Shown: positions 1 through 39,609 of the stretch, piece by piece
Layout: each line of letters begins with the position of its first letter
Position numbering within the stretch: position 1 is the stretch's first letter
NCBI GenBank assembly: GCA_949130485.1
Contig: OX422185.1
Location: 7,045,127-7,109,126 of the forward strand
Direction: 5' to 3'
Source: Agelas oroides
Taxonomy: Eukaryota; Porifera; Demospongiae; Agelasida; Agelasidae
DNA length: 64,000 bases
The notes under the pieces: generated by a model
Database searches by the model: none
Seen by the model: the letters and a program-made list of their open reading frames with translations, nothing else
What the model was told of the DNA's origin: nothing
Program-made: the position numbers and the translations under genes

Positions 1-2916
1 AAGGATGCATTCTGATCCCACTTCATTAACAGGTGGAGGTGAGTGAGGATCAATATCCAATTCTGGGCCATGATCATGTAACAATGTATCTGGCTTCTCT
101 TGTTTGAAACGGACAACAAGATGAACGTGCTTACAAATTGTATTGTGGATTAAATGATCAGGACAGTTACACGAGTAGCTATGAACACATACATTACATT
201 TTGTGCACCTTAGACAGCACTGAACTTGACACCCATCACCTTCCTCTGTTACATAGTACTCATGCCTCTTATCACTGGATGTAACAATCCAGCTGGTGTC
301 ACTGTGCTCTGTCACCAAAGATGTTGGCAGTTTCTGGCTTGTGAGGTGTCTGGCCATGATGGTGTGTATACGACCAGTTACTTTCCCTTTCTCTAGTTTC
401 ACAAGTCTCTCGAATGCCTTGTCTCTTGCAAATTTTAGAAGAACATGTATACATCTATCAACTCGCTTGTTCACTTTTCCTTTCAAATAGATGTGTTTGA
501 GGACGTGATGAAATGCCTCTACATACATGTTTGTATTAACAAAGGCTACCTTACGGTAGCACGCTGCCCACTGCTGTTTTGTTTCAGCATAGTATTGGGA
601 AAAGTAATCACCAAATGTTCGTGCTATTTTAGAAAGTTTTAGCTGCTGAAGTGTTTTTTGTAGCAAAGTTTCAAATTTGGATATGCTGGTTTCCTCCAGC
701 AACACCCTTAAATTGTGGTACACTCTAGCTTCGGTTTCCTTATCTCCAATAAGAGATTTGAGGTTTGTTCTCCATGCCCTATCAACATGCCAGGTACATA
801 ACAGTTTTTTAGGACCAGGCCCGAAGACAGCAATCCAGGCAGTGTAAAACTGTTCTGCGTCATCAGACATAAACCAGGCTGGCACAATGTCTCCCACTTT
901 CTCCTTTAGTCTGTTGAAGTAATTTATCAAAAGAAACTGGTCTTGTCTGTTTGACAAACACCAAGCTACTGGAAACCCCTCACCAAATTCATCAATTACC
1001 AGGACAGAGATGAGTAAAAAGTCATAGCCGTTGGTCCCATGTGTTGCATCCACACAAACAACCCTATTTGGTGCGAAGGTCTTCAGCATATCCCTTTGAA
1101 GTGGAGTTTGAAGAACTAGTACAAAATCTCGGTCTTCAAGGTTATCGCAGTTCTCTGGCTGAGATTGGCCCTGTGATTTAACCAGTAACACAGGGTTATC
1201 TTCTCCCTTAGTTTTCAACTCTTCAATCCAGGCACCAACACTCACTGCATCGATTGGATGTTTTTCTACACCCTTTAACCCATATGTCTTTTCTATGTTT
1301 GCAATGTCCTTCCTTGTAACCAAATGGATTCTATTAAACCTGCTGCCAACATTGTCCCTTATGTCATCCAAAATCCTTTCAAAAGTCACTCCCTGAGCCA
1401 GTTGTCCAGAAATTCTCTGACGGGCTACCTCTGGTAGCCTGAGGTGTCCCAAAGTTTGAGTGTGACCATAGTGTGAGTGACAAACTTCAGCCAATATGGT
1501 GTGTTCAAGTAGGTGACGTGTCACTATCAAGGCTGCAGTGCAGTGAGCATTAATTTTAGATGAGCCTTGTGATTTAAGGTGACGCTTACCTGCACTTTTT
1601 GTTTGAAAAAAACCACTTCTGTTACAGTAGTAGTATGTCAGTGTAGTTTCTCCTTTGCCCTTAACTCCAGTTACCTTTGTGAACCAAGACCTTGTGTCTT
1701 TCTCATACTCTTCCTTCCACTCCATGAATTCTGTTGGTAAAGGAAGTATTTCTGACAAGCATTCATTGACATGCATGCATTGTTGACACATACCTTCATC
1801 ACTTTTGAATGTCTTCTTTTCTGTCATCATTTCAATTCCATGTTCTAAGGATAAGTGTTGACGTAACTGAGCAAGATGTCTAAAGTGAAAACTACACTGT
1901 GCTTCTTTGCAAAGAATGCTTTCGCTTCCAGTTGTATGTGGTTTGTCACTTTTGTGCACCCGCTTCATGTGATGATGTAGACTGCCACGATGTTTATAAA
2001 CTTTGTTGCAGATGTCACATACAAGTCCTTTGTGTACACTAGTGCGAGGGTCACTTTGTTTCACACCTGGAGGGTCATTCTGGGTGATGCTCGTGGGGGA
2101 GTCATTGTGGGTGACGCTCATGGGGGGGTCATTCTGGGTGACAGTCATGGGGGGGTCATTCTGAGTGACGCTTGTGGGAGGGTCATTCTGGGTGACGCTT
2201 GTGGGAGGGTCATTCTGGGTGACGCTTGTGGAAGGGTCATTCTTGATGACACTCGTGGGAGGGTCATTCTGGGTGACGTTCGTGGGAGGGTCATTCTGGA
2301 TGACACTAGTGGGAGGGTCACTCTGGGTGATCCTCATGGGGGGGTCATTCTGGATGACACTCGTGGGAGAGTCATTCTGGATGACACTAGTGGGTGAGTC
2401 ATTCTGGGTGATGCTCGTGGGAGGGTCACTCCGATTGACGTTAGTGAGTGGGTCATTCTGGATGTCACTCATGGGAGGGTCATTCTGGGTGACGTTCGTG
2501 GGAGGGTCATTCTGGATGACACTAGTGGGAGGGTCACTCTGGGTGATCCTCATGGGGGGGTCATTCTGGATGACACTCGTGGGAGAGTCATTCTGGATGA
2601 CACTAGTGGGTGAGTCATTCTGGGTGATGCTCGTGGGAGGGTCACTCCGATTGACGTTAGTGAGTGGGTCATTCTGGATGTCACTCATGGGAGGGTCATT
2701 CTGGGTGACGTTCGTGGGAGGGTCATTCTGGATGACACTAGTGGGAGGGTCACTCTGGGTGATCCTCATGGGTGGGTCATTCTGGATGACACTCATGGGA
2801 GGGTCATTCTGGGTGACACTAGTGGGTGGGTCATTCTGGGTGATGCTCGTGGGAGAGTCATTCTGGATGACACTAGTGGGTTGGTCATTCTGGGCTACAT
2901 CCATACTTGCTAACAT
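1..2916 (-). CDS. MULE-like transposase with C2H2 fingers and SWIM finger (3' partial)
   Basis: The reverse strand is open without a stop from an ATG at 2916 to the window edge (972 codons), so the C-terminus lies outside. In order it shows: about 30 nonapeptide repeats (residues ~5-282); two C2H2 fingers (C300..H321 and C336..H359); a MULE/DDE core with D623 in VCVDATHGT, D685 in MSDDAEQF, the CxxH pair C707/H710 in LLCTWHVDRAW, and a probable third acid E800 in NMYVEAFHH; and a SWIM finger (C916, C918, C928, H930). This order (finger, DDE, SWIM) is known from Mutator-like transposases and domesticated relatives. The frame is also open upstream to a TGA at 2979-2977, with a possible splice acceptor near 2966, so the true start may lie in an earlier exon. 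It sits 105 bp downstream of the USP-SENP gene on the same strand. The intact frame suggests a recent element or a domesticated gene. Confidence 0.88.
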   Translation of the reverse strand, partial: MLASMDVAQNDQPTSVIQNDSPTSITQNDPPTSVTQNDPPMSVIQNDPPMRITQSDPPTSVIQNDPPTNVTQNDPPMSDIQNDPLTNVNRSDPPTSITQNDSPTSVIQNDSPTSVIQNDPPMRITQSDPPTSVIQNDPPTNVTQNDPPMSDIQNDPLTNVNRSDPPTSITQNDSPTSVIQNDSPTSVIQNDPPMRITQSDPPTSVIQNDPPTNVTQNDPPTSVIKNDPSTSVTQNDPPTSVTQNDPPTSVTQNDPPMTVTQNDPPMSVTHNDSPTSITQNDPPGVKQSDPRTSVHKGLVCDICNKVYKHRGSLHHHMKRVHKSDKPHTTGSESILCKEAQCSFHFRHLAQLRQHLSLEHGIEMMTEKKTFKSDEGMCQQCMHVNECLSEILPLPTEFMEWKEEYEKDTRSWFTKVTGVKGKGETTLTYYYCNRSGFFQTKSAGKRHLKSQGSSKINAHCTAALIVTRHLLEHTILAEVCHSHYGHTQTLGHLRLPEVARQRISGQLAQGVTFERILDDIRDNVGSRFNRIHLVTRKDIANIEKTYGLKGVEKHPIDAVSVGAWIEELKTKGEDNPVLLVKSQGQSQPENCDNLEDRDFVLVLQTPLQRDMLKTFAPNRVVCVDATHGTNGYDFLLISVLVIDEFGEGFPVAWCLSNRQDQFLLINYFNRLKEKVGDIVPAWFMSDDAEQFYTAWIAVFGPGPKKLLCTWHVDRAWRTNLKSLIGDKETEARVYHNLRVLLEETSISKFETLLQKTLQQLKLSKIARTFGDYFSQYYAETKQQWAACYRKVAFVNTNMYVEAFHHVLKHIYLKGKVNKRVDRCIHVLLKFARDKAFERLVKLEKGKVTGRIHTIMARHLTSQKLPTSLVTEHSDTSWIVTSSDKRHEYYVTEEGDGCQVQCCLRCTKCNVCVHSYSCNCPDHLIHNTICKHVHLVVRFKQEKPDTLLHDHGPELDIDPHSPPPVNEVGSECIL
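2080..2900 (-). repeat. 27-bp coding tandem repeat with a 216-bp higher-order unit
   Basis: About 30 copies of a 27-bp unit encode a nonapeptide close to QNDPPTSVI on the reverse strand. Eight variant units form a 216-bp block that recurs near 2271, 2487 and, partly, 2703. The frame is kept throughout. The array has spread by block duplication inside the coding region of the MULE-like gene. The long plus-strand frames here are shadows of it. Confidence 0.9.
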
Positions 2917-3021
2917 AGCTGCTCCATTGTATGAGCAATCAAGTCGCTCAAGGCAGTTAGGTCTAGGGGTATGTAGTCAGATATTTAACATGCAGTAGAA
3001 AATATGCCTAGCTGTATAGAC

Positions 3022-6000
3022 TCACAGGATATGTCCACTGATGATTTCAAACAGCATCTCATAACGAATCCTGGTCATCTCTCTCTATGAGATGAGAGAG
3101 AAGGAGGGTGACTCAACAGTGTACTGCATGTATTTGATGTGACATGTACCTGGTTGTATGTTGGATTCTGATGAAGAACAATGCACTCAGCCATCTATTA
3201 TGTGAAGACCAGCATATTCATTGCTGTTAGGTATACTGATGTACAGATTCCATACCTTCAATGCAAACACCCCACAGTCATAATCATTTTCTTGTTTGGG
3301 CAGCTCCTAAACGGGTAAGTAGAAACACATTTAAGATTCTCTAAGCAGAATATCAAGATCATTACTTCACTTACCCAGCAAAGATGGATTGTCCAGCCTC
3401 TCCATGCCAAAGGTTTTCCAGTCTCCTTGATGTGCCTTGCTTGCATGTATAAGCTAAAAATGTAAGGGAGCGAGACACGTATATCTCCCATATTTTGTGA
3501 TTTTAAAACAACCTACAGAAGTTTCTTGATCAATGAAAGTCCACTGCAGCAGTCGATAGAATCACCATATGAAATGACTCTTTTGGAGAAATCAACCACC
3601 TGCAAAGAATAAGCTAGTATCTCCATTCATTCATATACTTAGCATCAATCTTACAAGCATTGCCCAGTGAAAACCAAGGTGTACTGGAAGTATCCATTTT
3701 GTGAAATTAAACAGCTTGTCCTGTAGTGAGAATGGTCAGTTTGGATTACATGAGTAGACCACACAAACTGTCAAGAACTTTATAGTGAAATTTACATGTT
3801 TGAAGAAGTCTTTCACAGTACCCTCCACCCCACTTTTGAGGAGCTTTTCTGAGAAGAAGCTGGTCAAGGGATACACTGTGGAGGACTAAGTAATAAATAT
3901 GTTTGAGATGATTAGCAAGTTATTTCATACTGAAATTGTTTAATTATACCTTGGTGTTCATAGATGTAGCATGTCTTGCTATCAGTGCTGAGTACAGGTT
4001 GACAACCTACATGAGTTTTATTTTAATATAGGTAACTGTCATAACAGTAACTACAACAGTACTTACTTCATCATTGAGCCAGCAGAAACCACTGTTTGGA
4101 ACCATCCACCTTTGCCTGAGTGTTCTCAGACTTTGCCTGCTCACTGTCACTTTCTTTCTCCTGTTGTACCAGGAAGAAGGTAACTCGACAGTGGCAACAA
4201 TCTCAGTGATGTTGCTGCTCTTCAGAAGATCAAGGCACTTGGAAATATCTGGAAGATGAAATAAACTCTGAAATCAAACAGATGCCTGCAGTGCTTTGCA
4301 GTTACAAACCTTCTGGAGTTGGAAACCAAGGATTTCCACCTGATTGCAAGGTTGGAACTTTTATCTTTCTGTTCTGTTGTAGATTACGCAACTCGTCCAC
4401 TGACTGCGGTACGCTTTTGTGTAATTTAGGTGCTGGTTCACTGTTTTGAGCAGACTCCAGAAGAAGTTGAAAAAGCATGAGCTGCTTTTGTTGAATGACC
4501 ACACCTTCATTGCGATTCAGCCTAAGGGACTTTGTGCAGGTTGGTGTACGCCTGCCGGCTTCCTGTTATGCACAGACATCATGTTTATGTTTGTTGGTGT
4601 TTCGTTCACATAACATACATGCACTCACCCTCTCATAGAAGAAAAGGTAGGGCTTCTGTGACAACATACTTTCTTTTTTTATGCATGTAATCTACGTACC
4701 AATAAGGAGAGTGCATATTGACTTGGTGGTGATAATCCATTATAGAAGCCCAATGTCTCTATGCTAACCTTGTAGTCATCCATCTTGTACCATGCTGTGC
4801 CTTTTCTCACATATGCTATGTAGTGGCCTCCTTGGAGGGTGCCTCCCTCATGGCAGATAAACCCCCTTAGTTGATATGTTGGTTTCTGAAAACAAACAAC
4901 TGATTTCAATTGGTACACTGCTTTAGACTTAAAGTATGGTATGACCATTGGCTTACACTATTCCATGAAAGCTGTTCAGGGTAGGCGATGTGACTACCTT
5001 CCTTTTTCATTTTGCCAGCAACTTGTTTGAAACTGTTGAAAAGATCATAAGTATAATAATTATCATCATCTATTTTCATGGAATACTTTTACCCACCGCT
5101 TCAGTTGAATGATGAGGAGATCCAATGTCTTGCTGATCACTGTATCTTTGCTGGCATCTGTAAGTTTCTGGCACCTGAAGAGGTATTGACTCTCATTATG
5201 TAAACTACCCTAGCATACAAACACCCTTTAATTTACTTGGTGCAGAAGTATTGGTTATCAGCTTCCAACATCTCTCTCTGAAAAGCCTTCACTAAACATT
5301 CTCCCAAGCTTGAACCCTATATACGTTGATATAAATAAAAAAATTCATTTTGCAGAATAAGAATTATAGCAGTGTGCATTTACTAACATTAAGAGCAAGT
5401 GAGATGTGGTTGCTCAGCTCTTTGCTTTCTGAGGTAGTATGACATTCGTAGCATGTCACTGTATGAGAAGAGTGGGGATTGTATGTGTACATTCTCTTAA
5501 ACTGAGCATGTACTACCTTTGTGCAGGGTCTGGACTTCACAAATCTCATCCAACCGACTTTGATGGCCAAAGACACTGGTAAATGAAGATTTGTATGAAA
5601 TTACTGTTGATGGTACGTATCTGATGAAAGGCCTCATGGTTACCTATTGCAGCTGACAGGAAGCTCCCTGTTCAAATATTGGAATACATTTATCAGAAAT
5701 TCATGAGCATCTTCTTGCTTTCCTGGTGCCCATGTAGGCAGGATTGCTGTCAGATTGAATCACATCAAGATTTTTGAACACTATTTCATCACACAATAGT
5801 CGGTGCATCTTTACCTTTCAGGTTCCTGTAGAGAGTTGTTGGGACTGCAACCTCACTTGGTCTTTCCAGACAGTGTATTGAGAGAGATCGCAGTGTACAC
5901 AGAAGGCAGAAGCTGGAACTGGTTCCATGTACTGGAGATGTACACCAACAATCAATACTTTATCAGATGTTATTATAAGATGCCTGCACTTGTATATAAA

Positions 6001-6157
6001 TATACTTACAATGCTGAAGTCGTGGTCCAAATTCTGATAGCACACCTTGCAAGCTCGGAGTATGGAACAAACACTGAAGAACAGAGTTCATGAAACATGT
6101 CTTGCCTAGGTTTTCAAGGCCAGCGGCAATTTGACAGTGAGTCATGATCTCTGCCAT
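3022..6157 (-). CDS. USP deubiquitinase fused to SENP/Ulp1 SUMO protease, 20 exons
   Basis: Twenty exons chain in phase to 629 codons plus stop: 6157-6010, 5931-5815, 5722-5644, 5575-5517, 5458-5388, 5316-5237, 5174-5097, 5032-4957, 4885-4700, 4655-4629, 4562-4310, 4248-4067, 4006-3950, 3885-3796, 3720-3655, 3599-3517, 3453-3375, 3306-3256, 3194-3150, 3084-3022. Residues ~13-307 form a USP (C19) domain: Cys21 in GLENLGKTCFMNS (K replaces the usual N of GNTC), QEDAHEFL, zinc pairs C137/C140 and C183/C186, His257 in GGHYIAYV, Asp272/273 in WYKMDD, ending KPYLFFYER. After a linker (~308-390), residues ~391-629 form a Ulp1/SENP (C48) domain: WLNDEVVNLYS, His519 in GFHWAM, Asp536 in YGDS, Gln582 and Cys588 in LPKQENDYDCGVF. 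Both catalytic sets are complete, so removal of both ubiquitin and SUMO is predicted. The start at 6157 is chosen by the USP alignment; the frame is open to an ATG at 6214. The least certain joints are exons 9-10 and 19. Confidence 0.86.
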
Positions 6158-6272: not shown

Positions 6273-6455
6273 TGGCAACGTTCCTGTCGCTAACCTCCAC
6301 AGGAATACTAAGCTAGCGCCAGGAATATACTACCGCGCATGCGCATAATGATGGCAACGTTCCTGTCGCTAACCCCCACAGGGATACTCAGCTAGCGCCA
6401 GGAATATACTACTGCGCATGCGCACAAAATGGCAACGTTCCTGTCGCTATCCACT
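6273..6455. promoter_or_regulatory. Tandem-repeat bidirectional promoter with NRF1-like palindromes
   Basis: A 78-79-bp unit beginning TGGCAACGTTCCTGTCGCTA starts at 6273, 6352 and 6430 (about 2.4 copies). Two units contain the palindrome GCGCATGCGCA (6335-6345 and 6414-6424), which matches the NRF1 consensus of animal CpG-type promoters. It lies between the USP-SENP start (minus, 6157) and a plus-strand ATG exon at 6522, so a shared divergent promoter is inferred. No TATA box stands out. Confidence 0.55.
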
Positions 6456-6521
6456 AGTGCAACGGACAGCAGCCTCAGTGTGTTGTGAATCGCTTTTCTT
6501 GACCAGGGTAAATTTGAAGCT

Positions 6522-6587
6522 ATGAAGACGCTGAGTGGTTGGGAAGCTGTGCGCTGTGATGAACATCAGATTTGTGCTAAAATCAAG
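6522..6587 (+). CDS. Putative first coding exon of an unknown plus-strand gene
   Basis: An ATG in an otherwise open 22-codon stretch (starting MKTLSGWEAV) runs to a consensus donor GTGAGT at 6588, downstream of the divergent promoter. No next exon was found with confidence. A diverged inverted copy of this exon and its surroundings lies at 38681-39110, where the same ATG and donor are recognisable. It may therefore be part of a duplicated promoter/first-exon module or of a repeat, not a single-copy gene. Confidence 0.3.
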
Positions 6588-6877
6588 GTGAGTACTTGAG
6601 CTGTTTTCGAGTTATCGTCGTTTTGACAAGTGGTCTGAACAAAGAAAGAAGAAAGAAGAAAGAAGAATACGAAAAATGGCACTTTCATGACCGCACACTT
6701 TTGCGTTCAGCTATCTTCCGCGTGGCTTTTGGCCACTTATATGAGTCTTGCTGATCACAAAGCCACTCAAAGAGGAAGCCTGGGCGCTTAAATAAGCTTT
6801 TAGCGTGTTTGTGGTGAAGTTATACGGCTTTTGCTTAAGTATTGCATATATTGCGCGTCGGCGCCATCCCTACATAG

Positions 6878-6946
6878 AGAGTGTACAGACTCTCTGATAT
6901 AGAGTGTACCGACTCTCTGATATAGAGTGTACCGACTCTCTGATAT
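6878..6946. repeat. 23-bp tandem repeat, three copies
   Basis: Three head-to-tail copies of AGAGTGTACCGACTCTCTGA plus TAT (6878-6900, 6901-6923, 6924-6946). Each unit is itself partly palindromic (AGAGT..ACTCT). A single inverted copy occurs in the related segment at 38681. Confidence 0.85.
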
Positions 6947-12723: not shown

Positions 12724-15700
12724 CTACTGAGAATCAGAGTCAATATACACATTTCCCTCAAGAATACTTAGAGCAGACTGGTGTCCTGAAATGATCCTTA
12801 TAAGTTTCATTCGGTCCTGTTTTGAGCTGACACCAAGCTCATGCTGAAGAACGAGTTCATCACACTCTGCTAGAATCATCCCATCAATTAATTCTCGTGC
12901 AAACTCTTTTTGATATTTTCTCATACCCAGAAGATCAAGCAGCCTCAGGATCTGCAAGTATAAAAAAAATTGAGCAGTAATTATTTAATGTAACAAGCAA
13001 TTAACACAGGTGTTATGCATGGTAGGCCACTCATTGCTACAAAATAGCAATTACCAACTCAGTTAGAAATAGTTACTATGACTTAAGTGTGTACAAGGCA
13101 TAGAGCCCAGGCTGTGTCCCAAAATGCTTCATATTTCAGTAGCTAATAATATTTCATGCTTTAGTTTGATGACAGTACTAAGTTGCTAACTGTAACTGTT
13201 ATACATAGGTTAGTTGTACTTTATAACTCAAACACCCTGATGTACAGTAGTGTTCTTATCTACTATACTGTAATCGACAACAATCAAGGTGTGCCCAAAT
13301 TTGGTGATTGTAGTGAGCTAGAGAAGAGGCAAGAGCATTCCAACAATGTATGCGATTCAGAGGATCTCCATTTATGGAGGAAATGATAAGAGGCTGACAT
13401 ACAAGGATACAACATTTCTTTCTTGAACTGTTAGGTGTGCTGATTAAGGACTAGACCCCACACTCTCACATGTCTTGCTGGGAGGCACATATGGGCTGGG
13501 GTATGAGACTGGGGTATGAGACTAATGAAGGACAGGAAGAGACAAACTGCTGAGCAGAATACCAGTGCAACCTTTCATACAACAGCTTTCTACATGATGT
13601 CAAGTAGATAGGCACACAGAGTGCTAACCCGATCTTTCACTTCTGCTTATATTTGAGGCTCTTTTGCAAGCATGTATTAATACCCATTTGCATAGCATTA
13701 GAAAGACACATGTATCTAAATATCCTGATACAACTTAATGTACTACAACCTACTTCAAGTGACATTACAGCACAACACATTGTACCTCTGCTTGTGTCAG
13801 GGATTCTAACTCTGACTTTCTAGTCTCGGTTTGTTCGCAGGAGGACGTTGAAGGTGGAGTTAAAGGAGGAGAAGGCTGAGAATTACCAAGTGCCAGTTCT
13901 CCAACTGTGTGTGCACATGTATGCATGTGTATATGTTTGAATGAATGATGTGAGTGTGTATGTGTATACAGTACATGTGTGTAGCCTCCTACCCAGGTTC
14001 CTCCCCAGAAGAATGGGAGGCACGAGGCTACATGTGTGAGTGTGTGTGTAGAAGTTATGAATTGTGTGCATGTGTGGCATTGTTTTCATGGAAGCCCAAA
14101 TTCTATGAATGTTATCCACAAAGAGAACTGTACAACTATGCTTTTACTTCAGTTTTATGTAGTCACCCAATTTAAGTGCTAGCTCTAATGCTTCTAATAG
14201 CAGACATGGCAGAGATTTGCTTGAAAACCTTATCCAGCCATAACGTATTTCTGATTCTACTCCACTGGCAATGCCGTTAACACACTCATACACAGTACCA
14301 TATCTACCCAACTAGTGTATACCATGTAGAGTGATAGATGACATTTCAAGATTTTCAGCAGATGATGGTGTAGTCGGAGAGGATGGGGTACCTCCAATCT
14401 GAGTATTACTGTAGTCTCCAGCATCTTTGACTGTTGATTTCAACAGAGGTTGATGCTTTGGCAATTTTGGGTGGGGGCAATCTGTCCTGTGACTTTCAAC
14501 GGTTGACGTCCGGAGGTGTGATGGTACAGCATATGTATGATTGTTGGAATGATCCATACAGGCTTGGGTGTCGAGCTTTGCATATACATGTTCAGTAGTT
14601 TCTGCATATAACTTCTCAAATTCAGTGCTCTTGGGAGGAATGACCCTCACTTCAATGTCAAGACTGGCTGGGAGCTCAACAACAGTGTTTTGAAACACAT
14701 CTTTATCACCCACTGGAGATGCTATCAGGAATGTTTCCATGTATTGGTTTGCTAGCAACACAGGCTTTGAAAGTAGATACTCTGGAAATATGCTTTCGCC
14801 TTCAGCACTTAGAAACATTCTAGCCGTCAGCGGCAGTGGATCTAGTACATATCCCATAATTTCAGAAAGGTACAATTGTGTGCAGCATGGATCTGTGGTA
14901 AAGTGTCCCATACACTCTCTTTGTAGAAATTTCTCTTTCTGATCTGTCACACTTACCATCTTTAACATGCGATTCTCTTTCTGAATTCCTTGAATAGCAA
15001 GAATTTCATTTTCTCTTACTAAGGATTTGCTGTTACTGTCACAGCAACTGCTCTTTGCACAGACAACTCTAGGTAGTGGTGTAGAATCCATGAGTTCACC
15101 TACAGATCCAAACTCAATAGGTTCAAGGCAACTAGAATTTTCTCTTCTGTAGATGATGCCAAACCTTGCAGGAGAATTTAATGGCACAGTGAATGACATT
15201 TGACAATTATAATCTTTGAGTGTGACCACATTTGTGTGCTTGACGGAATGAATGCTGTATACCTCCCCAGATGCAATCGCAGCATGTTCACCATAGAACC
15301 CCTGTACCACTTGGACATGAAGTGGAAATGATTGTGAATGCTTTTCTATTAACTTAGACAAAGTCAGTCTCTCACTTCCACTAAATTTATCACCTGTTAA
15401 CATGGTCTTGTTAGGCATATTGAGAGACATTGCCTGCCTTTTCTTCGGCACACTTGTTGATGGTTGCTTTGACTGATTTGAATGCCAACAAACTGAGTTG
15501 GTCTCATGTCGATGTTTTTGAAGTAATGTTGGTGCTGGTGATGGATGATGTGACGTGTATGATACAGGTGGTGGTGGAGCCGGCCTGCATGGTTTTATTC
15601 TAGAAGAGGATCGAGTGGGTGATTTTGCTAAGCATAAATGTCCAGCTTTGATTGAACTTTTTGCTGCAGGTGGTGGCGGAGCAGGCCTGCAGGGTTTTAC

Positions 15701-15985
15701 TCTGGAAGAGGATCGACAGGGTGGTTGCACTATGGATAAACAACCCGTTTCACTTGAGTTGTTCGCTGCAGGTGGTAGTGGAGCAGGCCTGCATGGTTTT
15801 ACTCTCAAGGAGGATTGAGTAGAAGTTGGAACTGGAAGTGATATGTCACATTTTATTTTGTGATCTGGTACAGGTGCGGGTAGCAAGCTGACATAGAATT
15901 GATTGTCAGTAGCTGTAGTGTGGTGAGTTGACTCAGAGAAGGAATGCAAGATGCTACTTTTACTCTGCAGTTTGTTCGCCATCAT
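12724..15985 (-). CDS. GAREM-like adaptor: proline-rich, CABIT and SAM domains
   Basis: Three exons (15985-14323, 13904-13786, 12951-12724) join in phase to 669 aa. The N-terminus holds three near-identical PCRPAP(L/P)PP motifs (within residues ~60-140), likely SH3 ligands. A CABIT-type region follows from about residue 206 (LTLSKLIEKH, then FYGEHAAIASGEVYSIHSV) to about 440. A serine/proline linker includes PSPPLTPP. The last exon encodes a C-terminal SAM domain (LLDLLGMRKYQKEF .. ELGVSSKQDRMKLIRI). CABIT plus proline-rich plus C-terminal SAM is the layout of GAREM/FAM59, adaptors that link receptor tyrosine kinases to GRB2 and MAPK signalling. The start at MMANKL is chosen because a good acceptor (TTTTCCTGCAG) lies just upstream. 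Exon 1 contains several YxxV/L sites (HVYAKL, HTYAVP) that could bind SH2 domains. No breaks seen. Confidence 0.78.
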
Positions 15986-16182
15986 ATCTCTCACACTGCA
16001 GGAAAATATCACATACAGTTATTTTTCAAGTCATTGATCCACAAACTTAATCCTAAATTAGATGTGGCGAAAACTCCGGCAAAACGCTATCAGAATACCT
16101 TGGCCACTTTTCTTTGCAAACAGACTGATACTAGCATGTCCAAACAAAAAATAAAGTTTTGCCATACAGAAAAGATAGAATT

Positions 16183-17979: not shown

Positions 17980-18169
17980 GCAAGATACATTACATCCCAA
18001 GTTATAGACACAATATATGCAAATACGCAATTAGCCTAACAGCAGAAGGACTAGACATGGAGACAGAACAACTTTAACCTTTACATAATCCTTCATGAGA
18101 AAAAATATGGTAAAAGCCAAACCGGAATAGTCTAACCAGCTTTTGTACACCAGCAAGTGCACCGTATCA

Positions 18170-19400
18170 GGCGCTGCATATTTGGTGTTCAACCATGCAC
18201 AGCAAAAGCAAAAGTATGTATTTCATACCAATATGGTTTGATCTTCACCTCAACAAGTTTATCACCTATGGTATGAGTCTAGAGAGTATGACTTTCATAC
18301 TTTCCACATTACGTAGTTCATACCATGGATGATAGAAGATGTTTGTCATACCGAAGCGGAGTATATGAACTTCACACTTAGCCTGGACCCCAGACCCTCT
18401 GGCCGTGCGAGGATCGTCATACCAGATCGTCATGCCATTGCCATTAGGACAAAGGTCAAGAATCGGTCTATTTATGCATTTAAGAGATTGTGTATTCTAC
18501 TTGCTTCAAGATAGAGATATTTCTTATACTAATTAGACATTTCCTGTTGAAAATTAGGATTATCTGTGTATCTAAGCGAGGGTGGGAATTGTGTTGAGCT
18601 GAATTTGAAGTTGCAACCCAACTTGTTTTGCAGTGCATGCATCTTTCTGTCCCATAGTACACCTCCTTCCTTCTTTCTGCCTCAAGCACACTATTTCTGT
18701 TCCCTTCCCAACAGACACACAAAGCTCATGCAGCCTGGAATATTCTTACAATGATGTACTCCATCAATGGGTCTTCCTCATTGCTCTTCTCTTCACCCCC
18801 TCCTCCATACACATACAGAACAGTAACCAAGTGAAGAATTAGAGGAGCAGAACATGTACCGTACTTACATGCACACAAGTACACACGTAAACTTAGTTCA
18901 CCTCCTTGCTCATTGTTATTTTGTTCATGCCCCATAGTATACTCTACTCTCTCCCTACTCACGGCTTATAGTGCACTCTCCTTTTCCTTCTGCTCAATAA
19001 TATACATAGCATACTATATAATATGCTGTCTCTTGTTTCTTCACATGTGCAGATATCTATGCTGCCTCTCCCTTTGTAGCGCAGAAGCAAGAAGTGACTT
19101 TATACTCGAACTAAGTAACTAGATGCTACTTGAGTTTACTTGCTTTTGGTGTCAGTGTATTTCTTGGTGTATATTATAATCTGCTATGCTTGTCATTCAA
19201 CAAGCAAGGACAAGCTGAATGCGTCATGCATAGATTATTCGTTCTCATGGATGAAAATCATACTTTCTAATAGTATGACTATGATATCATACCATTATGA
19301 AATCTGTACCTTTTTAGTATGCTCATTGTAAAAAGTGAAAACTAATCATACCTATTTTGATGTGAAATTCATACCGTTGTTTTGGCTGTGTGCACATATT
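18170..19400. other. Possible non-autonomous TIR element (copy in unit 1)
   Basis: GCACAGCAAAAGCAAAAGTA followed by TGTATTTCATACC (~18196) is partly inverted at 19330-19395 (GAAATTCATACCGTTGTTTT followed by GGCTGTGTGC). GGTATGA/TCATACC motifs are frequent near both ends. The ends are imperfect and no target duplication was identified. The same segment recurs at 23561-24791. Confidence 0.35.
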
Positions 19401-19676
19401 GCTTGCTAAAATCAACTTTTGAGTCCAAGCTGTCAGTCTACAGCAATAGTTTGATGTTCTGTCCAGCCTGGCTAGCTTAATATTACTCAGATAAATATAC
19501 CGGTATACTCACCGTCAGTTAGTTAATCAGTGCAAGATTCGTCGATCTGCAGCCAGGTAGCAAGGCAGTACACTAAATTGTATAAACGTATTTGCTGACT
19601 GTCGTAACTTGGGCGAGCCTAAGCAAGCTTCACGCTTGAGTAGTTGCATTGCATGCACACGCGTGTGTGCGTTTGC

Positions 19677-19960
19677 TTCCTTGCTTGCCTTCGTGCTTGC
19701 TTGTGCTTGCTTACCTTCGTGCTTGCCTTCGTGCTTGCCTTCGTGCTTGCCTTCGTGCTTGCCTTCGTGCTTGCCTTCGTGCTTGCCTTCGTGCTTGTCT
19801 TCGTGCTTGCTTGTGCTTGCTTGCTTTCTTGTTCGCCTTCGTGCTTGCTTGTGCTTGCTTGCGTTCTTGCTCGCCTTCCTGCTTGCTTGTGCTTGCTTTG
19901 TTACCCTTGCTGCGCTTGCTTGCTTGCTTGTTTACTTGCTTCCTTCCGAATTGCTTGCAG
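19677..19960. repeat. GCTTGCCTTCGT microsatellite/minisatellite, unit 1
   Basis: About eight copies of CTTGCCTTCGTG followed by degenerate GCTTGCTTGTGCTTGC runs. It is open in several frames, giving Cys/Leu-rich (plus) or Arg/Ala/Gln-rich (minus) artefact proteins. Repeated at 25068-25351. Confidence 0.9.
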
Positions 19961-20059
19961 CCACTTACGGTAAATTCCAATTCAATATAATTATGCGGTA
20001 CAAAAATATTTACATAACTATTAAGCCCCCAATTTGTTGATTTTTAGTTTTCATCAGGT

Positions 20060-22458
20060 GTACACACAATGCGGGCAAGCATATATAGTATACTGAAAGG
20101 AAGAAGGATAGAACAGTGTTTCTGTTCAAGGACTAGGCATCTGAAGCAAGTTTTTCGAAAGTTCGCTGAGGTCAACCAGAAAAAGAGTATCACATTTTTC
20201 TCAGGGCAAGGGATTTCCCCTGACCCCAAGAAGGTATATATAGAAGCCATCAAAAATGCCAAACCACCGACGATGACCAGTGGTGTGAGAAGCTTCCTGG
20301 GAATGGCCACATATACAGTGTGAAGTTCATCCCGAATTTCAGCGACACCCTTGGAACCGTTACGAGAGTTCACAAAGATGCCAAATTTCAATGGAGTGAG
20401 CGACATATGAGCAGTCGTTCAACAAGATCAAAGAGCTACTCGCCAGTGCCAAGGTAATGGCACACTTCAACCCAAACAAAGAAACAGAACTGGTCACTGA
20501 TGCTTCTCGCTCAGGATTATCTGCCATCCTGATGCAGAACACACCAGGAAAAGAAGACAGATGAGTAGTTACATACTCCAGCCGAGTTCTTACTGATGTC
20601 GAAAGACGCTATTCCCAGACAGAAAGAGAAGCACTAGCAATCGTCTGGGCAGTCGAGAGGCTCCATCTTTATCTCTACAGCGGTCATTTCAAATTTGATC
20701 ACTGACTGCAAGCTGTAGTGTCTGGCCAGTTCACAATAACTCACGGCATATAGTAAACAGGTTGATTCATTATACAGAACATTGAGTGCTCGAATAGCAC
20801 AGCCAAATGATAGTAAACAGAACTAAAAATAATCAGACAGCATTCACAAAAACCAGACCACATTGTATCATCAAGACAATGCTATAATTATGTTCACATT
20901 CTGTCACACAAGCCTGTTCAGCTGATTTTCAGAAACCCTAAGTCAAAAACACCACCTCGCATTGAACGTTGGAACTTGCAACTCCAAGGTTACGATTAGA
21001 GGTGCTTAACACAGAAGGAAGTCAAAACCCTGCAGACTTCTCGTCTAGACACTCCGGTCTCAATGCTGATGACAAACAAGACACTCTACTAGCAGAGGAG
21101 TATGTCAATTTTCTTGCATCAGCCGCTGTTCCGAAGGCAATGACTTTAGCCAAAATTCAAGAAGCAACAGCACAAGACATCACTATGCAATGTTTAGCCA
21201 ACCTCATGCGCACACAGTCATTGAGGAACATTGAAAAGCTTCCCGATGCTGATCATGCAGAATTGAAACACGTTTGACATGAGCTGACAGTCCTTTGGGA
21301 CAGTCGTATAGCTAGTTGTACCTGCAGCCCATCGCGACAAAGCAGTATTGATTGCACATGAGGGTGACTCACCAAGGTCTGGTAAAGATGAAACAACTAT
21401 TTCGTGAAAAGATTTGGTTTGCAGGAATAGACGAAACCATCCAGAGAATGATCAAGAAGTGCATTGCATGCCAAGCCAATGGCCCTAGCCACCATACAGA
21501 CCCCCTCCAGATGTCTCCCTTACCGCCCAACCCTTGGCATACCGTCCACATGGACTTCTGTGGTCCTTTCCTTCAGTAGAGTACTTGTTCGTTGCCATCA
21601 ACGCATACTAACAATTCCCTGAGTTTGGGATCGTTCGTTCGACATCTGCTAGCTGCATCATTCCAAAGTTGGACAGAATCTTCTCAACTCATGGAATACC
21701 ACAAGTGGTGAGAAGCGACAATGGTCCCCCTTTCACAAGTGAAGAGATCAAGGAGAACATGCGTGAGAATGGAATTGATCATTGCAGAATAACTCTGCTT
21801 TGGCCTCAAGGTTAACTCAGAAGCAGAGAGATTTATGAAACCACTCACTAGAGCAATTCGCTCCACTCATGTGGAAGGCAACATGTGGAGGAAACATCTC
21901 TACAAGTTTCTTCTCAACTATAGAACGACGCCACATAGCACAACAGGATTTTCACCAGCAGAATTCCTCTTCAATCGAAAAGTTCGAAACAAACTTCCGT
22001 CTGGGCATACCAGCCAGTCTGATCTTGGTGCAAAGGTGAAGGAAAATGATGACAGGGCCAAAGTCATGATGAAAACATATGCCGATGCTAAAGTGAGAGC
22101 AAAGACATCCACCATCAAGATTGGTGATAGGGTACTTGCTCGACAGAGCAAGCACAAGCTCTCAACACATTTCGATCCCTTATCATTTTGAGTTGTGTGT
22201 ACGAATGGAACTATGATTACAGCACGTCGCAATGGCAAGTATATCACTCGCAATGTGTCTCATTTCAAAGTAGTGGACCCAGTGTTCCACGGAGAAGAGT
22301 CCAATGATGAGGAAGAGGAAGATGATGATCATGTATCGAGTCCAAACTCCAACTATGCTTCAGATGCAAACGTGAACCCTCCTCAAAATGAATTGAGACG
22401 ATCCACCCACAATCGTAGACGAGTCAATCGTTTTGGACACTATGTTTATGGACAATGA
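20060..22458 (+). mobile_element. Degenerate Ty3/gypsy pol remnant, copy 1
   Basis: Fragments in several frames, in pol order: end of reverse transcriptase (GISPDPKKV, GVRSFLGMATY), RNase H (VTDASRSGLSAILMQ), a linker (QNPADFSSRHSG), integrase zinc-binding region (KKCIACQANG), integrase core (HMDFCGPF, RSDNGPPF) and a C-terminal region with an acidic tail (SNDEEEEDDD). Breaks include stops after the RT end, a disrupted stretch around 20700-20950, frameshifts in the integrase core near 21590 and 21790, and a stop near 22190. No gag, no 5' RT and no LTRs were seen, so it is a dead partial insertion. It belongs to Ty3/gypsy elements of an animal genome. Confidence 0.85.
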
Positions 22459-22503
22459 TTTGTGTTAATTTTCCTTTTGGACTACAGGTTTGCAGTCCGA
22501 GTA

Positions 22504-22829
22504 ATGCGCCTATCAATATTATGCCCCACTACCCCCCGTACGGGCAGATAGCGGGCAATATAGGGGCTTTGACCGAAGGAGGCTGCCCCTATAGTCGGGC
22601 ATTTGATTACCTCTGAAGACATCTTGAATACGGCAATGGTCTCCGTATACTGCACAGTTACACTGCGTGTGTCAAATCCCCAGTAATCCCCCACCTTCTG
22701 CAAGGGGATTTGATTATAGGGTATGTCCCGTATATTGGGGCAATTGATATTTAAATTAGTCAAATCCCCACCTTGCCCCACTATAGCCCGTACAGGGGGT
22801 AGTGGGGCGTAACATTGATAGGCGCATAA
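22504..22829. mobile_element. MITE with ~42-bp TIRs, unit 1
   Basis: Left end ATGCGCCTATCAATATTATG followed by CCCCACTACCCCC; right end is its inverse (GGGGGTAGTGGGGCG .. TTGATAGGCGCAT). About 326 bp, no coding capacity. Identical copy at 27895-28220. Confidence 0.8.
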
Positions 22830-23370
22830 AAGGGAGATGTAATGTTGTTATAACGTATGTATACATTATTACGTAATCATGTATCATCACGTGATCACTG
22901 GTAATGATTGAAAAATAGTGATGAATGCCATGTGCTAGAGAAAGCAGTCAATGTACATAAGAGTGGTCTAGATCTGTGCGAATCTGGTCTGCTAATAATA
23001 GCCCTAGCTGGACACTACAATGTTGAAATTTTAGGGTTGGAAGGATGGAAAAATCACTTTGTGGTTGGCTGAATGACAGATTCATGTTTGCCCAGCTCAA
23101 TCAGGTGAGCCCATGCTCTTTTCTGTTCAGCAGAATACTTGTTACCATGTGTGTCATTCAACTTCTGGAAAATCTCATCAACTTTGGCCAGATTAGGGTA
23201 CTACATAAGCCATGTGTAGTACAAGCTAGGTATACTACAGGCTACTGCGCTTTGCAGGTAGGTTGTCACAAGGAAACAGACAGCGGTCATCTTGTGGTTG
23301 AATAATGTTATTTGAAGCCTATGAAGTCCAATGATGATTGATTGATCTGGTAAACCACAAGATGAACACT
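22830..23370. other. Unit 1 distal end with truncated hairpin
   Basis: Holds the left arm (23265-23299, GTCACAAGGAAACAGACAG..) of an inverted repeat whose right arm is cut at 23370 by the duplication junction. No gene recognised; the 86-codon frame starting at 23045 has no family resemblance. Confidence 0.6.
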
Positions 23371-25067
23371 GCAAGATACATTACATCCCAAGTTATAGAC
23401 ACAATATATGCAAATACGCAATTAGCCTAACAGCAGAAGGACTAGACATGGAGACAGAACAACTTTAACCTTTACATAATCCTTCATGAGAAAAAATATG
23501 GTAAAAGCCAAACCGGAATAGTCTAACCAGCTTTTGTACACCAGCAAGTGCACCGTATCAGGCGCTGCATATTTGGTGTTCAACCATGCACAGCAAAAGC
23601 AAAAGTATGTATTTCATACCAATATGGTTTGATCTTCACCTCAACAAGTTTATCACCTATGGTATGAGTCTAGAGAGTATGACTTTCATACTTTCCACAT
23701 TACGTAGTTCATACCATGGATGATAGAAGATGTTTGTCATACCGAAGCGGAGTATATGAACTTCACACTTAGCCTGGACCCCAGACCCTCTGGCCGTGCG
23801 AGGATCGTCATACCAGATCGTCATGCCATTGCCATTAGGACAAAGGTCAAGAATCGGTCTATTTATGCATTTAAGAGATTGTGTATTCTACTTGCTTCAA
23901 GATAGAGATATTTCTTATACTAATTAGACATTTCCTGTTGAAAATTAGGATTATCTGTGTATCTAAGCGAGGGTGGGAATTGTGTTGAGCTGAATTTGAA
24001 GTTGCAACCCAACTTGTTTTGCAGTGCATGCATCTTTCTGTCCCATAGTACACCTCCTTCCTTCTTTCTGCCTCAAGCACACTATTTCTGTTCCCTTCCC
24101 AACAGACACACAAAGCTCATGCAGCCTGGAATATTCTTACAATGATGTACTCCATCAATGGGTCTTCCTCATTGCTCTTCTCTTCACCCCCTCCTCCATA
24201 CACATACAGAACAGTAACCAAGTGAAGAATTAGAGGAGCAGAACATGTACCGTACTTACATGCACACAAGTACACACGTAAACTTAGTTCACCTCCTTGC
24301 TCATTGTTATTTTGTTCATGCCCCATAGTATACTCTACTCTCTCCCTACTCACGGCTTATAGTGCACTCTCCTTTTCCTTCTGCTCAATAATATACATAG
24401 CATACTATATAATATGCTGTCTCTTGTTTCTTCACATGTGCAGATATCTATGCTGCCTCTCCCTTTGTAGCGCAGAAGCAAGAAGTGACTTTATACTCGA
24501 ACTAAGTAACTAGATGCTACTTGAGTTTACTTGCTTTTGGTGTCAGTGTATTTCTTGGTGTATATTATAATCTGCTATGCTTGTCATTCAACAAGCAAGG
24601 ACAAGCTGAATGCGTCATGCATAGATTATTCGTTCTCATGGATGAAAATCATACTTTCTAATAGTATGACTATGATATCATACCATTATGAAATCTGTAC
24701 CTTTTTAGTATGCTCATTGTAAAAAGTGAAAACTAATCATACCTATTTTGATGTGAAATTCATACCGTTGTTTTGGCTGTGTGCACATATTGCTTGCTAA
24801 AATCAACTTTTGAGTCCAAGCTGTCAGTCTACAGCAATAGTTTGATGTTCTGTCCAGCCTGGCTAGCTTAATATTACTCAGATAAATATACCGGTATACT
24901 CACCGTCAGTTAGTTAATCAGTGCAAGATTCGTCGATCTGCAGCCAGGTAGCAAGGCAGTACACTAAATTGTATAAACGTATTTGCTGACTGTCGTAACT
25001 TGGGCGAGCCTAAGCAAGCTTCACGCTTGAGTAGTTGCATTGCATGCACACGCGTGTGTGCGTTTGC

Positions 25068-25351
25068 TTCCTTGCTTGCCTTCGTGCTTGCTTGTGCTTG
25101 CTTACCTTCGTGCTTGCCTTCGTGCTTGCCTTCGTGCTTGCCTTCGTGCTTGCCTTCGTGCTTGCCTTCGTGCTTGCCTTCGTGCTTGTCTTCGTGCTTG
25201 CTTGTGCTTGCTTGCTTTCTTGTTCGCCTTCGTGCTTGCTTGTGCTTGCTTGCGTTCTTGCTCGCCTTCCTGCTTGCTTGTGCTTGCTTTGTTACCCTTG
25301 CTGCGCTTGCTTGCTTGCTTGTTTACTTGCTTCCTTCCGAATTGCTTGCAG
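25068..25351. repeat. GCTTGCCTTCGT microsatellite, unit 2
   Basis: Same repeat count and sequence as 19677-19960. Identity of an unstable microsatellite between the two units is itself evidence for a very recent or artefactual duplication. Confidence 0.9.
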
Positions 25352-25450
25352 CCACTTACGGTAAATTCCAATTCAATATAATTATGCGGTACAAAAATAT
25401 TTACATAACTATTAAGCCCCCAATTTGTTGATTTTTAGTTTTCATCAGGT

Positions 25451-27849: not shown

Positions 27850-27894
27850 TTTGTGTTAATTTTCCTTTTGGACTACAGGTTTGCAGTCCGAGTA

Positions 27895-28220
27895 ATGCGC
27901 CTATCAATATTATGCCCCACTACCCCCCGTACGGGCAGATAGCGGGCAATATAGGGGCTTTGACCGAAGGAGGCTGCCCCTATAGTCGGGCATTTGATTA
28001 CCTCTGAAGACATCTTGAATACGGCAATGGTCTCCGTATACTGCACAGTTACACTGCGTGTGTCAAATCCCCAGTAATCCCCCACCTTCTGCAAGGGGAT
28101 TTGATTATAGGGTATGTCCCGTATATTGGGGCAATTGATATTTAAATTAGTCAAATCCCCACCTTGCCCCACTATAGCCCGTACAGGGGGTAGTGGGGCG
28201 TAACATTGATAGGCGCATAA
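27895..28220. mobile_element. MITE with ~42-bp TIRs, unit 2
   Basis: Duplicate of 22504-22829, with the same ends and length. Confidence 0.8.
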
Positions 28221-28655
28221 AAGGGAGATGTAATGTTGTTATAACGTATGTATACATTATTACGTAATCATGTATCATCACGTGATCACTGGTAATGATT
28301 GAAAAATAGTGATGAATGCCATGTGCTAGAGAAAGCAGTCAATGTACATAAGAGTGGTCTAGATCTGTGCGAATCTGGTCTGCTAATAATAGCCCTAGCT
28401 GGACACTACAATGTTGAAATTTTAGGGTTGGAAGGATGGAAAAATCACTTTGTGGTTGGCTGAATGACAGATTCATGTTTGCCCAGCTCAATCAGGTGAG
28501 CCCATGCTCTTTTCTGTTCAGCAGAATACTTGTTACCATGTGTGTCATTCAACTTCTGGAAAATCTCATCAACTTTGGCCAGATTAGGGTACTACATAAG
28601 CCATGTGTAGTACAAGCTAGGTATACTACAGGCTACTGCGCTTTGCAGGTAGGTT

Positions 28656-28778
28656 GTCACAAGGAAACAGACAGCGGTCATCTTGTGGTTGAATAATGTT
28701 ATTTGAAGCCTATGAAGTCCAATGATGATTGATTGATCTGGTAAACCACAAGATGAACACTGTCTGTTTCCTTGTGAC
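28656..28778. repeat. Inverted repeat (35-bp arms) at the duplication boundary
   Basis: Arms 28656-28690 and 28744-28778 (GTCACAAGGAAACAGACAG / CTGTCTGTTTCCTTGTGAC) differ at about two positions, with a loop of about 53 bp. The 5,391-bp duplication ends inside the right arm. Confidence 0.85.
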
Positions 28779-31040: not shown

Positions 31041-31135
31041 TAGTGCTAGCGCAATGCGAGTAAATGAAATTCCTGTGCAACAAGCGGCTGCAGCGAAAGT
31101 TACCAGATCTCTTCCCTCTGAGACTAGTTCTAACC

Positions 31136-37530: not shown

Positions 37531-38680
37531 TTAGGACATTTGAACTACACGTGAATGCAGGTTGATTCAACATGCATACTAGCGACATGCATGTAATGTG
37601 TGTTGTTTAAATTAATACAGAGATGTTGGTTGATTCAACATACGTAAGTGTTGCATGGTTACAGTACATTACAGAAACGACATACGTACTTATACAATAC
37701 TTAATCAGTCAATCATATGTGTTCAATTACAAATCCATCTGTGAAGAAATATATCATATAATTATAAGTTGCTCAAATTTATGCATGATGGTAGTCTCGT
37801 CCCCAGACCCCCTTGAACACTCCAAGAGGAAAGGGGGGTCTGGTGAATATAGTACAACATTTTTGTACCTCCGAGGAATTTCGGTGGCACAGTCTGATTG
37901 ACTTGGTTTTCACTCGATCCCTACCTTTTAGTAAGGGGTTTAAGAGTTTTAGTGGTTGAAACTATAACTAACTAAAAATTATGTAAAAACCAGGGAACTA
38001 TAACTAAACTAAACCAAAAGTATTTTCTAAATCCAAAAACTAACTATAACTAAACTAAAAGCACAAACCCCATACTAAAATTTGAAGGGTTTTGTGGTGT
38101 ACATGGTTGGCAAAATGGCACAAGATGTAGGGATGGTGTAAAAGTGTTGTGGTGTTGTTCCTATCTTGTTTGGTTGGTTTTTGAGGGTTCCATCCTTACA
38201 TGTGCTTGTTTTCATTGAGAAAACTTTTTTGTGACTTGTTTGCTTTGTTTTTTTTTTGGTGGTTTTGTTTTGTTTTGTTCAAGCATAAGCACAGCCGAAG
38301 TAGAAAGAAATGGTGCAAGGAATGCGGGTGGATGCTGGTAGACAGCCCAGCTTGTAACAAATTGTTAAGCAAAGGTGCTATGTAATATGTGTTGTGGAAG
38401 TCGGTGTCTGTCAGTGTCAATATATAGCACTTTTCACTTGTATGAAGCGGTTTTTTCTATATCCTTTTAGGTACGTGCTTACTCAGTAAGTATAAACTGG
38501 GGTTCAATTGATGTCTTAATGTTTGTTAATTACCACTGTTTGGTTGTTCACCACAGAGCTGGGCTGTAGATGGGCTGCGGATGCACTGAAGGATGTCTAG
38601 GAAGAGGTGCCTAATAGATGCATTGGGTTTAGTTGTTGGCTTTTACGTAGGTGTATAGCCATATCTTGTTTCAACATATC
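37531..38680. other. Intergenic with AT-rich simple sequence
   Basis: 37930-38065 repeats ACTATAACTAAACTA-type words; 38225-38280 has T- and GTTTT-rich runs. No supported gene. Confidence 0.45.
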
Positions 38681-39110
38681 AGAGAGTCGGTAGACTCTCT
38701 ATGTAGGGATGGCGCCGACGCGTAATATATGCAATACTTAAGCAAAAGCCGTATAACTTCACCACAAACACGCTAAAAGCTTATTTAAGCGCCCAGGCCT
38801 CCTCTTTGAGTGCCTTTGTGATCAGCAAGACTCATATAAGTGGCCAAAAGCCACGCGGAAGACAGCTAAACGCAAAAGTGTGCGGTAGTGAAAGTGCCAC
38901 TTTTCTTATCAGTCTTTCTTGTTACGACTTTTGTTCAAACAACGATATCTCGCAAACTGTTTAAGTACTCACCGTCATTTTAGCACGAAACTGATGCTTA
39001 CCACAGCGCGGAGCTCTACGACCACTCAGCGTCTTCATAGCTTCAAATTCACCCTGGTCAACAAAAGCCATTCACAACACTCTGAGGCTGCTGTCCGTTG
39101 CTTAGGACGC
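38681..39110 (-). repeat. Inverted diverged copy of the 6455-6900 promoter/exon segment
   Basis: The reverse complement matches 6455-6900 along its length: GCCATCCCTACATAGAGAGT, the AAGCCACGCGGAAG-type segment, and the ATGAAGACGCTGAGTGGT exon followed by GTGAGTACTT. The exon copy differs in several codons but keeps the ATG and donor. A GCATGCGCAC NRF1-like half site lies just outside (~39129). Confidence 0.8.
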
Positions 39111-39609
39111 CATTTTCTAATTTTGTACGCATGCGCACACGAAGTCTCGTTCCCAGACCAAAGACCACGGTCATTGGTCTGGAAGCGAGAGTACACAAGC
39201 GAGCGGGCATGGCATGCTGGCACGGTCTTTTCCCTCCGCGGCATTGGGCAAGGCTTATGAACACCACGTAGGTAAGGCGCTGCATTTAGCTGCCTACTTG
39301 TAGCTAAACTAAAAATAGTCTACTCACAGCTTTAGTGAACTGTAAAGCTAGGATAGTCAGTTGTCAGTAGGATAGTTTTCTGTACTGCAGCTGGTCAGTT
39401 GTCATGTGATTCACAACTGAATCACGAAATTGGTTTCACAAAGTTTGGTACGGAGAGTGGTTGGCCCTTCATCAGGTTCTAGCTGGCTATATTGCACATA
39501 ATTATTACATGCCTGGAATCACTACTAAACCGTCAACACCGTTCCAAGTTCTGGTGTTGTGGTTACACTTGAAACATTGTAACTGAGATTAACATCAAAA
39601 AAGTACAGA
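39111..39609. other. Short spacer, nothing firm
   Basis: Contains a fold-back around CCAGACCAAAGACC / GGTCATTGGTCTGG (~39157-39182). No gene recognised. Confidence 0.4.

Follow-up and report, generated by a model that had tools for sequence, protein, structure and literature searches.

The stretch of the sponge Agelas oroides genome analyzed here (the window; 64,000 bp, C3:7045127-7109126) carries a 20-exon gene on the minus strand (window 6157-3022) whose product is predicted to combine a ubiquitin protease of the USP type (peptidase C19) with a SUMO protease of the SENP/Ulp1 type (peptidase C48). Just past it the frame of a transposase opens, and both lie inside a Mutator-like element (MULE) with terminal inverted repeats (TIRs) and a target-site duplication. 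That the USP-SENP gene is cargo of this MULE is, in our judgment, practically certain. A reading made from the letters of the window alone (the sequence-only reading) had treated it as an ordinary gene; that reading ended at position 3022 and missed both the 992-codon transposase frame (2976 to 1) and the transposon ends. All features of the element described below are on the minus strand.

The spliced USP-SENP model comprises 1914 nt and translates into 637 aa plus a stop codon, with all 20 exons joining in phase across 19 GT-AG introns of 44 to 78 nt (mean, 64 nt). The sequence-only reading had the exons, their phase, and their consensus splice sites right but gave a length of 630 codons (629 aa), 8 aa too short; it likewise recognized both catalytic sets as intact, placing Cys21 correctly and numbering all later residues 8 too low. 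The USP part, exons 1 to 10 (4629..6157), is identified by Pfam and PDB matches and by its catalytic residues. The UCH profile (PF00443, C19/USP) aligns over its full length (residues 12 to 313, profile positions 1 to 254 of 254; E = 5.6e-40), Cys21, His265, and Asp280/281 are present, and the top-scoring solved structure is that of USP36 (8bs9; E = 3.3e-33). This part also has two CxxC pairs, presumably as in the USP zinc ribbon. The SENP part, exons 12 to 20 (3022..4248), is identified by the same three kinds of evidence: a near-full match to Peptidase_C48 (PF02902; residues 456 to 630, profile positions 2 to 211 of 217; E = 3.1e-22), the residues His527, Asp544, Gln590, and Cys596, and SENP1 (2xre; E = 1.7e-26) as the top-scoring structure. 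A profile check of the model for both peptidase families in one open reading frame, as the earlier reading had proposed, was therefore positive. The top PDB matches on the C48 side are SENP1, SENP5, SENP2, and SENP3, which is suggestive of SUMO, rather than NEDD8 or ubiquitin, as the substrate.

Between the two proteases lies linker exon 11 (4310..4562), in phase with exons 10 and 12 and 94% identical in two further copies of the element, B and C. The frame from the USP domain to the SENP domain runs free of stops through exon 10 (4655-4629) and the linker (4562-4310), just as the sequence-only reading had claimed. The intron between the USP part and the linker is 66 nt long, and a gap of that size leaves little space for a separate promoter. 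On the strength of this gene model, the two proteases very probably belong to a single polypeptide. Cleavage of ubiquitin by the USP part and of SUMO by the SENP part is predicted from sequence; with two intact-looking domains in one spliced frame, a dual deubiquitinase/deSUMOylase is the natural prediction, and we think it somewhat likely that both proteases are active. The sequence-only reading suggested in addition that such an enzyme could edit mixed SUMO-ubiquitin chains.

The transposase frame (1..2976) opens 45 bp past the SENP stop, runs uninterrupted through 992 codons as far as the window edge, and ends at C3:7044698 after 1134 codons in total. It contains a tandem array (2056..2892) in which 31 units of 27 bp, the last of them degenerate, encode 9-aa repeats of the QNDPPTSVT type in frame with the transposase; we accepted this frame because, of the three minus-strand frames, it is the sole one open through the repeats into the transposase. 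A C2H2-like zinc finger, CDICNKVYKHRGSLHHHMKRVH, follows at 1954..2019, with a Pfam E-value of 0.0053 that falls below the curated cut-off. The MULE transposase core (500..1075) matches PF10551 (E = 4.4e-8; 33.9 bits against a cut-off of 27.6), and the frame also matches the ZSWIM1-3 RNaseH-like family (E = 5.8e-8). The core contains an aspartate in DATHGTN, a second in FMSDDAEQ, the C..H pair in CTWHVD, and a glutamate in NTNMYVEAFHH, all of which are invariant between the element in the window (copy A) and its relative E (two sequences, 49% identity); we take the D/D/E residues to be the DDE catalytic triad. Toward the end of the windowed part of the frame is a CxC...CxH motif, CNCPDHLIHNTICKH (127..171), which we take, from the motif only, to be a SWIM-type finger; a Pfam search of the transposase frame gave no SWIM match.

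Copy A is 8,113 bp long (C3:7043472-7051584) and extends leftward from window position 6458, its last 1,655 bp lying beyond the window. Its 5' TIR, ACTAGTGGATAGCGACAGGAACGTTGCCAT, occupies 6429..6458 and has its 3' partner at C3:7043472-7043501, outside the window; a 79-bp subterminal tandem repeat of 2.3 copies, which includes the TIR core, spans 6273..6449. The element is flanked by a 9-bp target-site duplication, GTCCGTTGC, found on the 5' side at 6459..6467 and on the other side, beyond the window, at C3:7043463-7043471. MULE target-site duplications are 8 to 11 bp long, usually 9. When the flanks of copy A were joined in a script, they matched a paralogous empty site elsewhere in the window (38676..39537, plus strand) with 87% identity over 893 columns, and that site is uninterrupted and has a single copy of the 9-mer. 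The two places (6459-6900 and 38676-39101) belong to a dispersed repeat of high copy number, which was the target of the copy A insertion, with at least 41 matches at 92 to 100% identity (best 40 of 1,999 candidates scored). Transposase domain, TIRs, and 9-bp duplication are thus all present, and transposition is known here from insertion footprints alone.

A search of the organism's own genome (259 Mb, 141 contigs) found the USP-SENP exons in four copies: A in the window (C3), B and C on C4, and D on C2. All four share a single unit with the same 3' end, and in place of a stable host locus outside mobile DNA, the USP-SENP gene was found within this common unit every time. Copies A, B, and C also share the 5' end and have TIRs of about 30 bp; copy D starts about 170 bp further in and has no 5' TIR. 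Exact 9-bp target duplications flank three of the four, namely A, C (TTCAAAGTG), and D (GGTCTTCAC, a 9-mer with one further occurrence within 20 kb around copy D). Copy B lacks a target duplication, and its left flank is different; over 8.5 kb, of which 1.3 kb is right flank, it is 99.99% identical to copy C. Copy D (C2:18014-18022k) begins inside the third subterminal 79-bp unit and yet has a perfect 9-bp duplication, as though transposition had used an internal repeat for the end of the element.

The TIR core occurs genome-wide at 80 sites with up to 2 mismatches, compared to none for the reversed control. Convergent pairs were counted from the 40 exact sites, leaving out the 40 with mismatches, and number 18: copies B and C themselves, 13 pairs spaced at 1 to 2 kb, a spacing that derivatives with internal deletions would show, and three at 4.0, 10.5, and 11.1 kb. 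These three (C11:6610435, C3:9244707, and C18:4542489, respectively) have no USP-SENP or transposase among the matches listed, and it is possible that they hold other cargo or nested insertions.

The SENP stop codon of copy A overlaps a candidate splice donor. A 63-nt intron (intron 20; 2963..3025) with the donor GTGAGT after CCT, overlapping the TGA, and an acceptor AG at 2964-2963 would, when removed, join SENP in phase to the transposase frame, for a total of 1,766 aa (1,624 in the window plus 142 codons beyond). The same arrangement recurs in two more diverged relatives, E (C17:4449-4463k) and F (C19:3745-3754k), in which USP pieces and then SENP pieces precede a Pro/Thr-rich tandem repeat, different from that of A, followed by a C2H2 finger and then a MULE transposase, in the order and on the strand seen in A; the transposases of E and A are 49% identical over 466 aa. 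In both relatives the SENP stop, TAA, overlaps GTAAGG in the same phase as in A, and an AG located 29 nt (E) or 71 nt (F) further on opens the repeat-C2H2 exon in phase. The first methionine of that exon comes after the finger (residue 296 versus 264 in E and 270 versus 238 in F), so the exon could hardly start a finger-bearing protein on its own. Taken from sequence, the joining of USP-SENP to the transposase, in a protein of about 1,766 aa with the order USP-SENP-repeat-C2H2-MULE-SWIM, seems to us likely. The 629-aa protein that the sequence-only reading took for the whole product would then probably be a short isoform of this longer chain or else just its N-terminal part: retention of intron 20 would yield a free 637-aa double protease, and fused and free forms could both arise in this way.

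The element may instead hold two genes within its TIRs, with USP-SENP ending at the TGA at 3022 and the transposase starting at an ATG near 2920-2900, an arrangement that we consider possible but rather doubtful. Several observations speak for it and against a fused protein. The acceptor of intron 20 in copy A is weak, equalled by 67 of 209 decoy AGs; copy A has in-frame ATGs after 2976 (MLASMDVAQND) that offer a possible separate start for the transposase; the end of the SENP frame is similar in the two lineages (GHIL before the stop in A and GHLL in E), as it would be for a real C terminus; and the equivalent intron in relative E would be very short, at 29 nt. The acceptors of model introns 9, 10, and 12 are as weak as that of intron 20 or weaker, and its donor is equalled by 6 of 174 decoys. 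Against two genes stand the 45-bp gap between the SENP stop and the transposase frame, too small for a usual promoter, the lack of an ATG ahead of the C2H2 finger in E and F, and the donor and phase common to both lineages.

In Pfam searches, E gave matches to UCH (7.2e-6) and MULE (3.6e-9) and F to UCH (3.1e-9) and C48 (2.3e-4), and the C2H2 fingers of E and F match that of A only weakly (E-values of 0.13 and 0.2). The repeats before the finger are minisatellite-coded and in the same place in both lineages but differ in sequence (QNDPPTSVT versus TKPPTTVPSGPLN). The USP-to-SENP distance in F is about 1.3 kb, as in A. A third, more diverged USP-SENP pair lies on one strand at C8:5712701-5714200 and keeps, in order, the USP GHY and ND and then the SENP HW, DS, IPRQ, and DCGVF motifs, with no MULE close by among the matches listed; it may represent a further lineage of such elements or else a fusion gene, of the host or domesticated, from which the cargo could have come. 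By eye, the USP His/Asp motifs are seen in A, E, F, and the C8 pair and the USP Cys motif in A and E; for SENP, all of His/Asp/Gln/Cys are seen in A, F, and the C8 pair, and Gln/Cys in E. Since the linkage of USP-SENP to a MULE is common to a lineage only 49% identical in transposase, it is not a recent accident.

Other MULE and protease matches in the genome are more fragmentary. A SENP piece lies upstream of two MULEs on C2 (near 13.51 and 13.69 Mb), with no USP match near either among the matches listed. MULE matches of at least 40% identity on C1 (about 20.21, 28.38, and 28.40 Mb), C4 (5.15 Mb), C7 (4.79 Mb), C8 (4.89, 4.99, and 5.07 Mb), and C21 (4.01 Mb) have no protease close by among the matches listed for these short-exon queries. 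A genome-wide Pfam search for C48 gave 20 other places, and the locus itself was absent from its list because the exons are short. At C10:7402586-7406370, a MULE-like match is followed 3 to 4 kb downstream on the same strand by SENP-like matches, possibly another MULE with an Ulp1 gene in the opposite order. A SENP piece at C14:2704815-2704964 is 86% identical to that of the C19 element, and its nearest MULE among the matches listed is about 25 kb off; it is perhaps an element fragment. Scans by short peptide patterns found no relatives of the USP-SENP protein in viral contigs and none of the transposase alignment in prokaryote genomes or viral contigs.

The explanation that we favor overall, and hold to be fairly probable, is a MULE whose USP-SENP gene continues into its own transposase and whose protease pair protects the element. 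A DNA-binding transposase with two modifier proteases beside it suggests that SUMO and ubiquitin are removed locally. The DNA-binding parts of the transposase would bring the protease pair to the element ends, where it might strip these modifiers from the transposase or from factors that act in silencing or repair, and this removal could protect the expression and mobility of the element. The element may thus use the protease gene to evade the silencing of the cell rather than to serve the host. Such an anti-silencing or self-protection role is put forward tentatively, at a little under even chances. A more specific version, in which the transposase is a locus-targeted double eraser and the stop-overlapping splice site switches between free and targeted forms of the double protease, is speculative and on balance improbable.

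Some features of the copies and relatives weigh against this explanation. Copy A has both its USP-SENP and its transposase frame open, but it is the only one of the four copies with unbroken USP-SENP exons: exons 4 and 13 are one base short in both B and C, whose transposase frames are open (1008 aa), and in copy D exons 11 and 15 are altered in length and stops interrupt the transposase matches. Between copies A and B, 9 of 1912 exon sites and 6 of 1222 intron sites are different (0.47 and 0.49%), and between A and D, 33 of 1913 exon sites and 24 of 1190 intron sites (1.73 and 2.02%). With exon and intron divergence similar and codon changes mostly non-synonymous, purifying selection was not seen in these comparisons; the copies decay neutrally after insertion, and the recent ones show no selection on the proteases. 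Among the relatives, the USP and SENP pieces of E are about 7.8 kb apart, and its spliced SENP tail and repeats gave no Pfam match. Relative F is decayed, with an in-frame TGA in the last SENP exon and a stop that parts the SENP His and Asp boxes in the frame read, and its USP Cys box was not found. A MULE at C1:27592954, 76% identical to the transposase of E and itself decayed by eight stops, has no USP or SENP nearby among the matches listed.

The proteases might alternatively act on the transposition machinery and leave chromatin silencing unaffected, either by deconjugating SUMO and ubiquitin from the fused transposase or from repair factors or simply as modules for binding. We consider this a minority possibility. 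It is in keeping with the likely fusion in one chain and with a proposal, in the available passages of PMC2836005, that Ulp1 and OTU domains act in transposition via DNA repair factors. By itself, this reading would leave unexplained why two different modifier proteases are kept.

Less probable still, and in our view unlikely, is that a host USP-SENP gene came to neighbor or be duplicated with a MULE or was recently captured as cargo of no use to the element. The host-like intron density, the decay of some copies, the neutral divergence among them, and the C8 pair, with no MULE nearby among the matches listed, would all fit such an origin. The genes nevertheless lie inside TIRs, a target duplication, and boundaries confirmed by an empty site, and the linkage to a MULE recurs in the second lineage. 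A gene that is a mere neighbor of the MULE is refuted by the element boundaries, and an assembly join or chance neighbors, the former a worry raised in the sequence-only reading, are ruled out, since the genome has four copies, of which three have 9-bp target duplications of their own; the more diverged relatives share the arrangement, which is thus beyond chance.

Elsewhere in the window, two 5,392-bp units in tandem (17980-23371 and 23371-28762) are 100% identical to each other, through either an artefact of the assembly or duplication in the very recent past. Two long open frames look ordinary: a class-C-type G protein-coupled receptor with ANF_receptor and 7tm_3 domains (31064-33439, plus strand) and a CABIT-domain protein (14312-16018, minus strand).

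Each component of the element has precedents in known systems. Cellular USP36 and SENP1 resemble the respective protease domains but are separate host proteins. There are repeated records of transposons that carry a single Ulp1, OTU, or C19 domain (PMC2836005), and Mutator elements with Ulp1 are known from hydra, lancelet, and plants; the hydra and lancelet elements are, like copy A, MULEs that encode an Ulp1/C48 protease, but, compared by description only, the available passages mention no USP (PMC2836005). The Kaonashi (KI) MULEs of Arabidopsis, with their KIU genes, and the ULP-MULEs of grapevine, melon, and rice have also captured a ULP domain, which is conserved in eudicots and whose function is described as unknown (PMC2528002, PMC13317346). 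According to the same partly available sources, KIU genes are VANC genes with an Ulp1 domain, VANC induces hypomethylation of related elements, and KIU-bearing elements can escape silencing (the last from PMC13317346). The KI-MULEs are of the non-TIR kind, and their ULP gene runs opposite to mudrA (in both orientations in melon and others), and no USP is mentioned in the passages available (PMC2528002, PMC13317346), whereas the proteases here lie on the transposase strand and TIRs are present, which sets this element apart from them.

Other precedents involve different transposases or proteases. A Trichomonas protein (XP_001314237.1) joins a peptidase C19 to a transposase, but the latter is the unrelated transposase_11, and no SENP is mentioned in the passages available (PMC2836005). 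Ginger1 likewise combines a transposase with an Ulp1 or OTU protease domain, but its transposase is Gypsy-integrase-like and the protease is C-terminal, with one protease or the other per family in the table (PMC2836005). The hydra MuDR-6_HM element, of MULE group 14, has an "Ovarian Tumour Gene" (OTU) motif, a deubiquitinase type, which is OTU and not USP, with no SENP listed in the parts available (PMC6446971). The words peptidase, protease, ubiquitin, SUMO, and sponge are absent from the main text of that MULE survey, so far as it was available (PMC6446971). No description of USP and Ulp1/SENP together in one protein or transposon was found in the titles, abstract starts, and passages of the open-licence literature. 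The earlier statement that no protein with this architecture has been described is therefore uncontradicted within that literature, although each component has a transposon precedent (PMC2836005). What appears to be new is the presence of both proteases in one MULE, apparently fused to its transposase.

USP and SENP have been kept together, apparently fused to the transposase, in two lineages that are 49% identical in transposase. SUMO promotes Argonaute/small-RNA-directed silencing in worms (PMC8131101, as partly available), and a MULE with both proteases makes testable the old proposal that transposons edit host ubiquitin and SUMO marks in order to move or to escape silencing. Annotated USP-SENP "genes" in such genomes may accordingly be transposon proteins.

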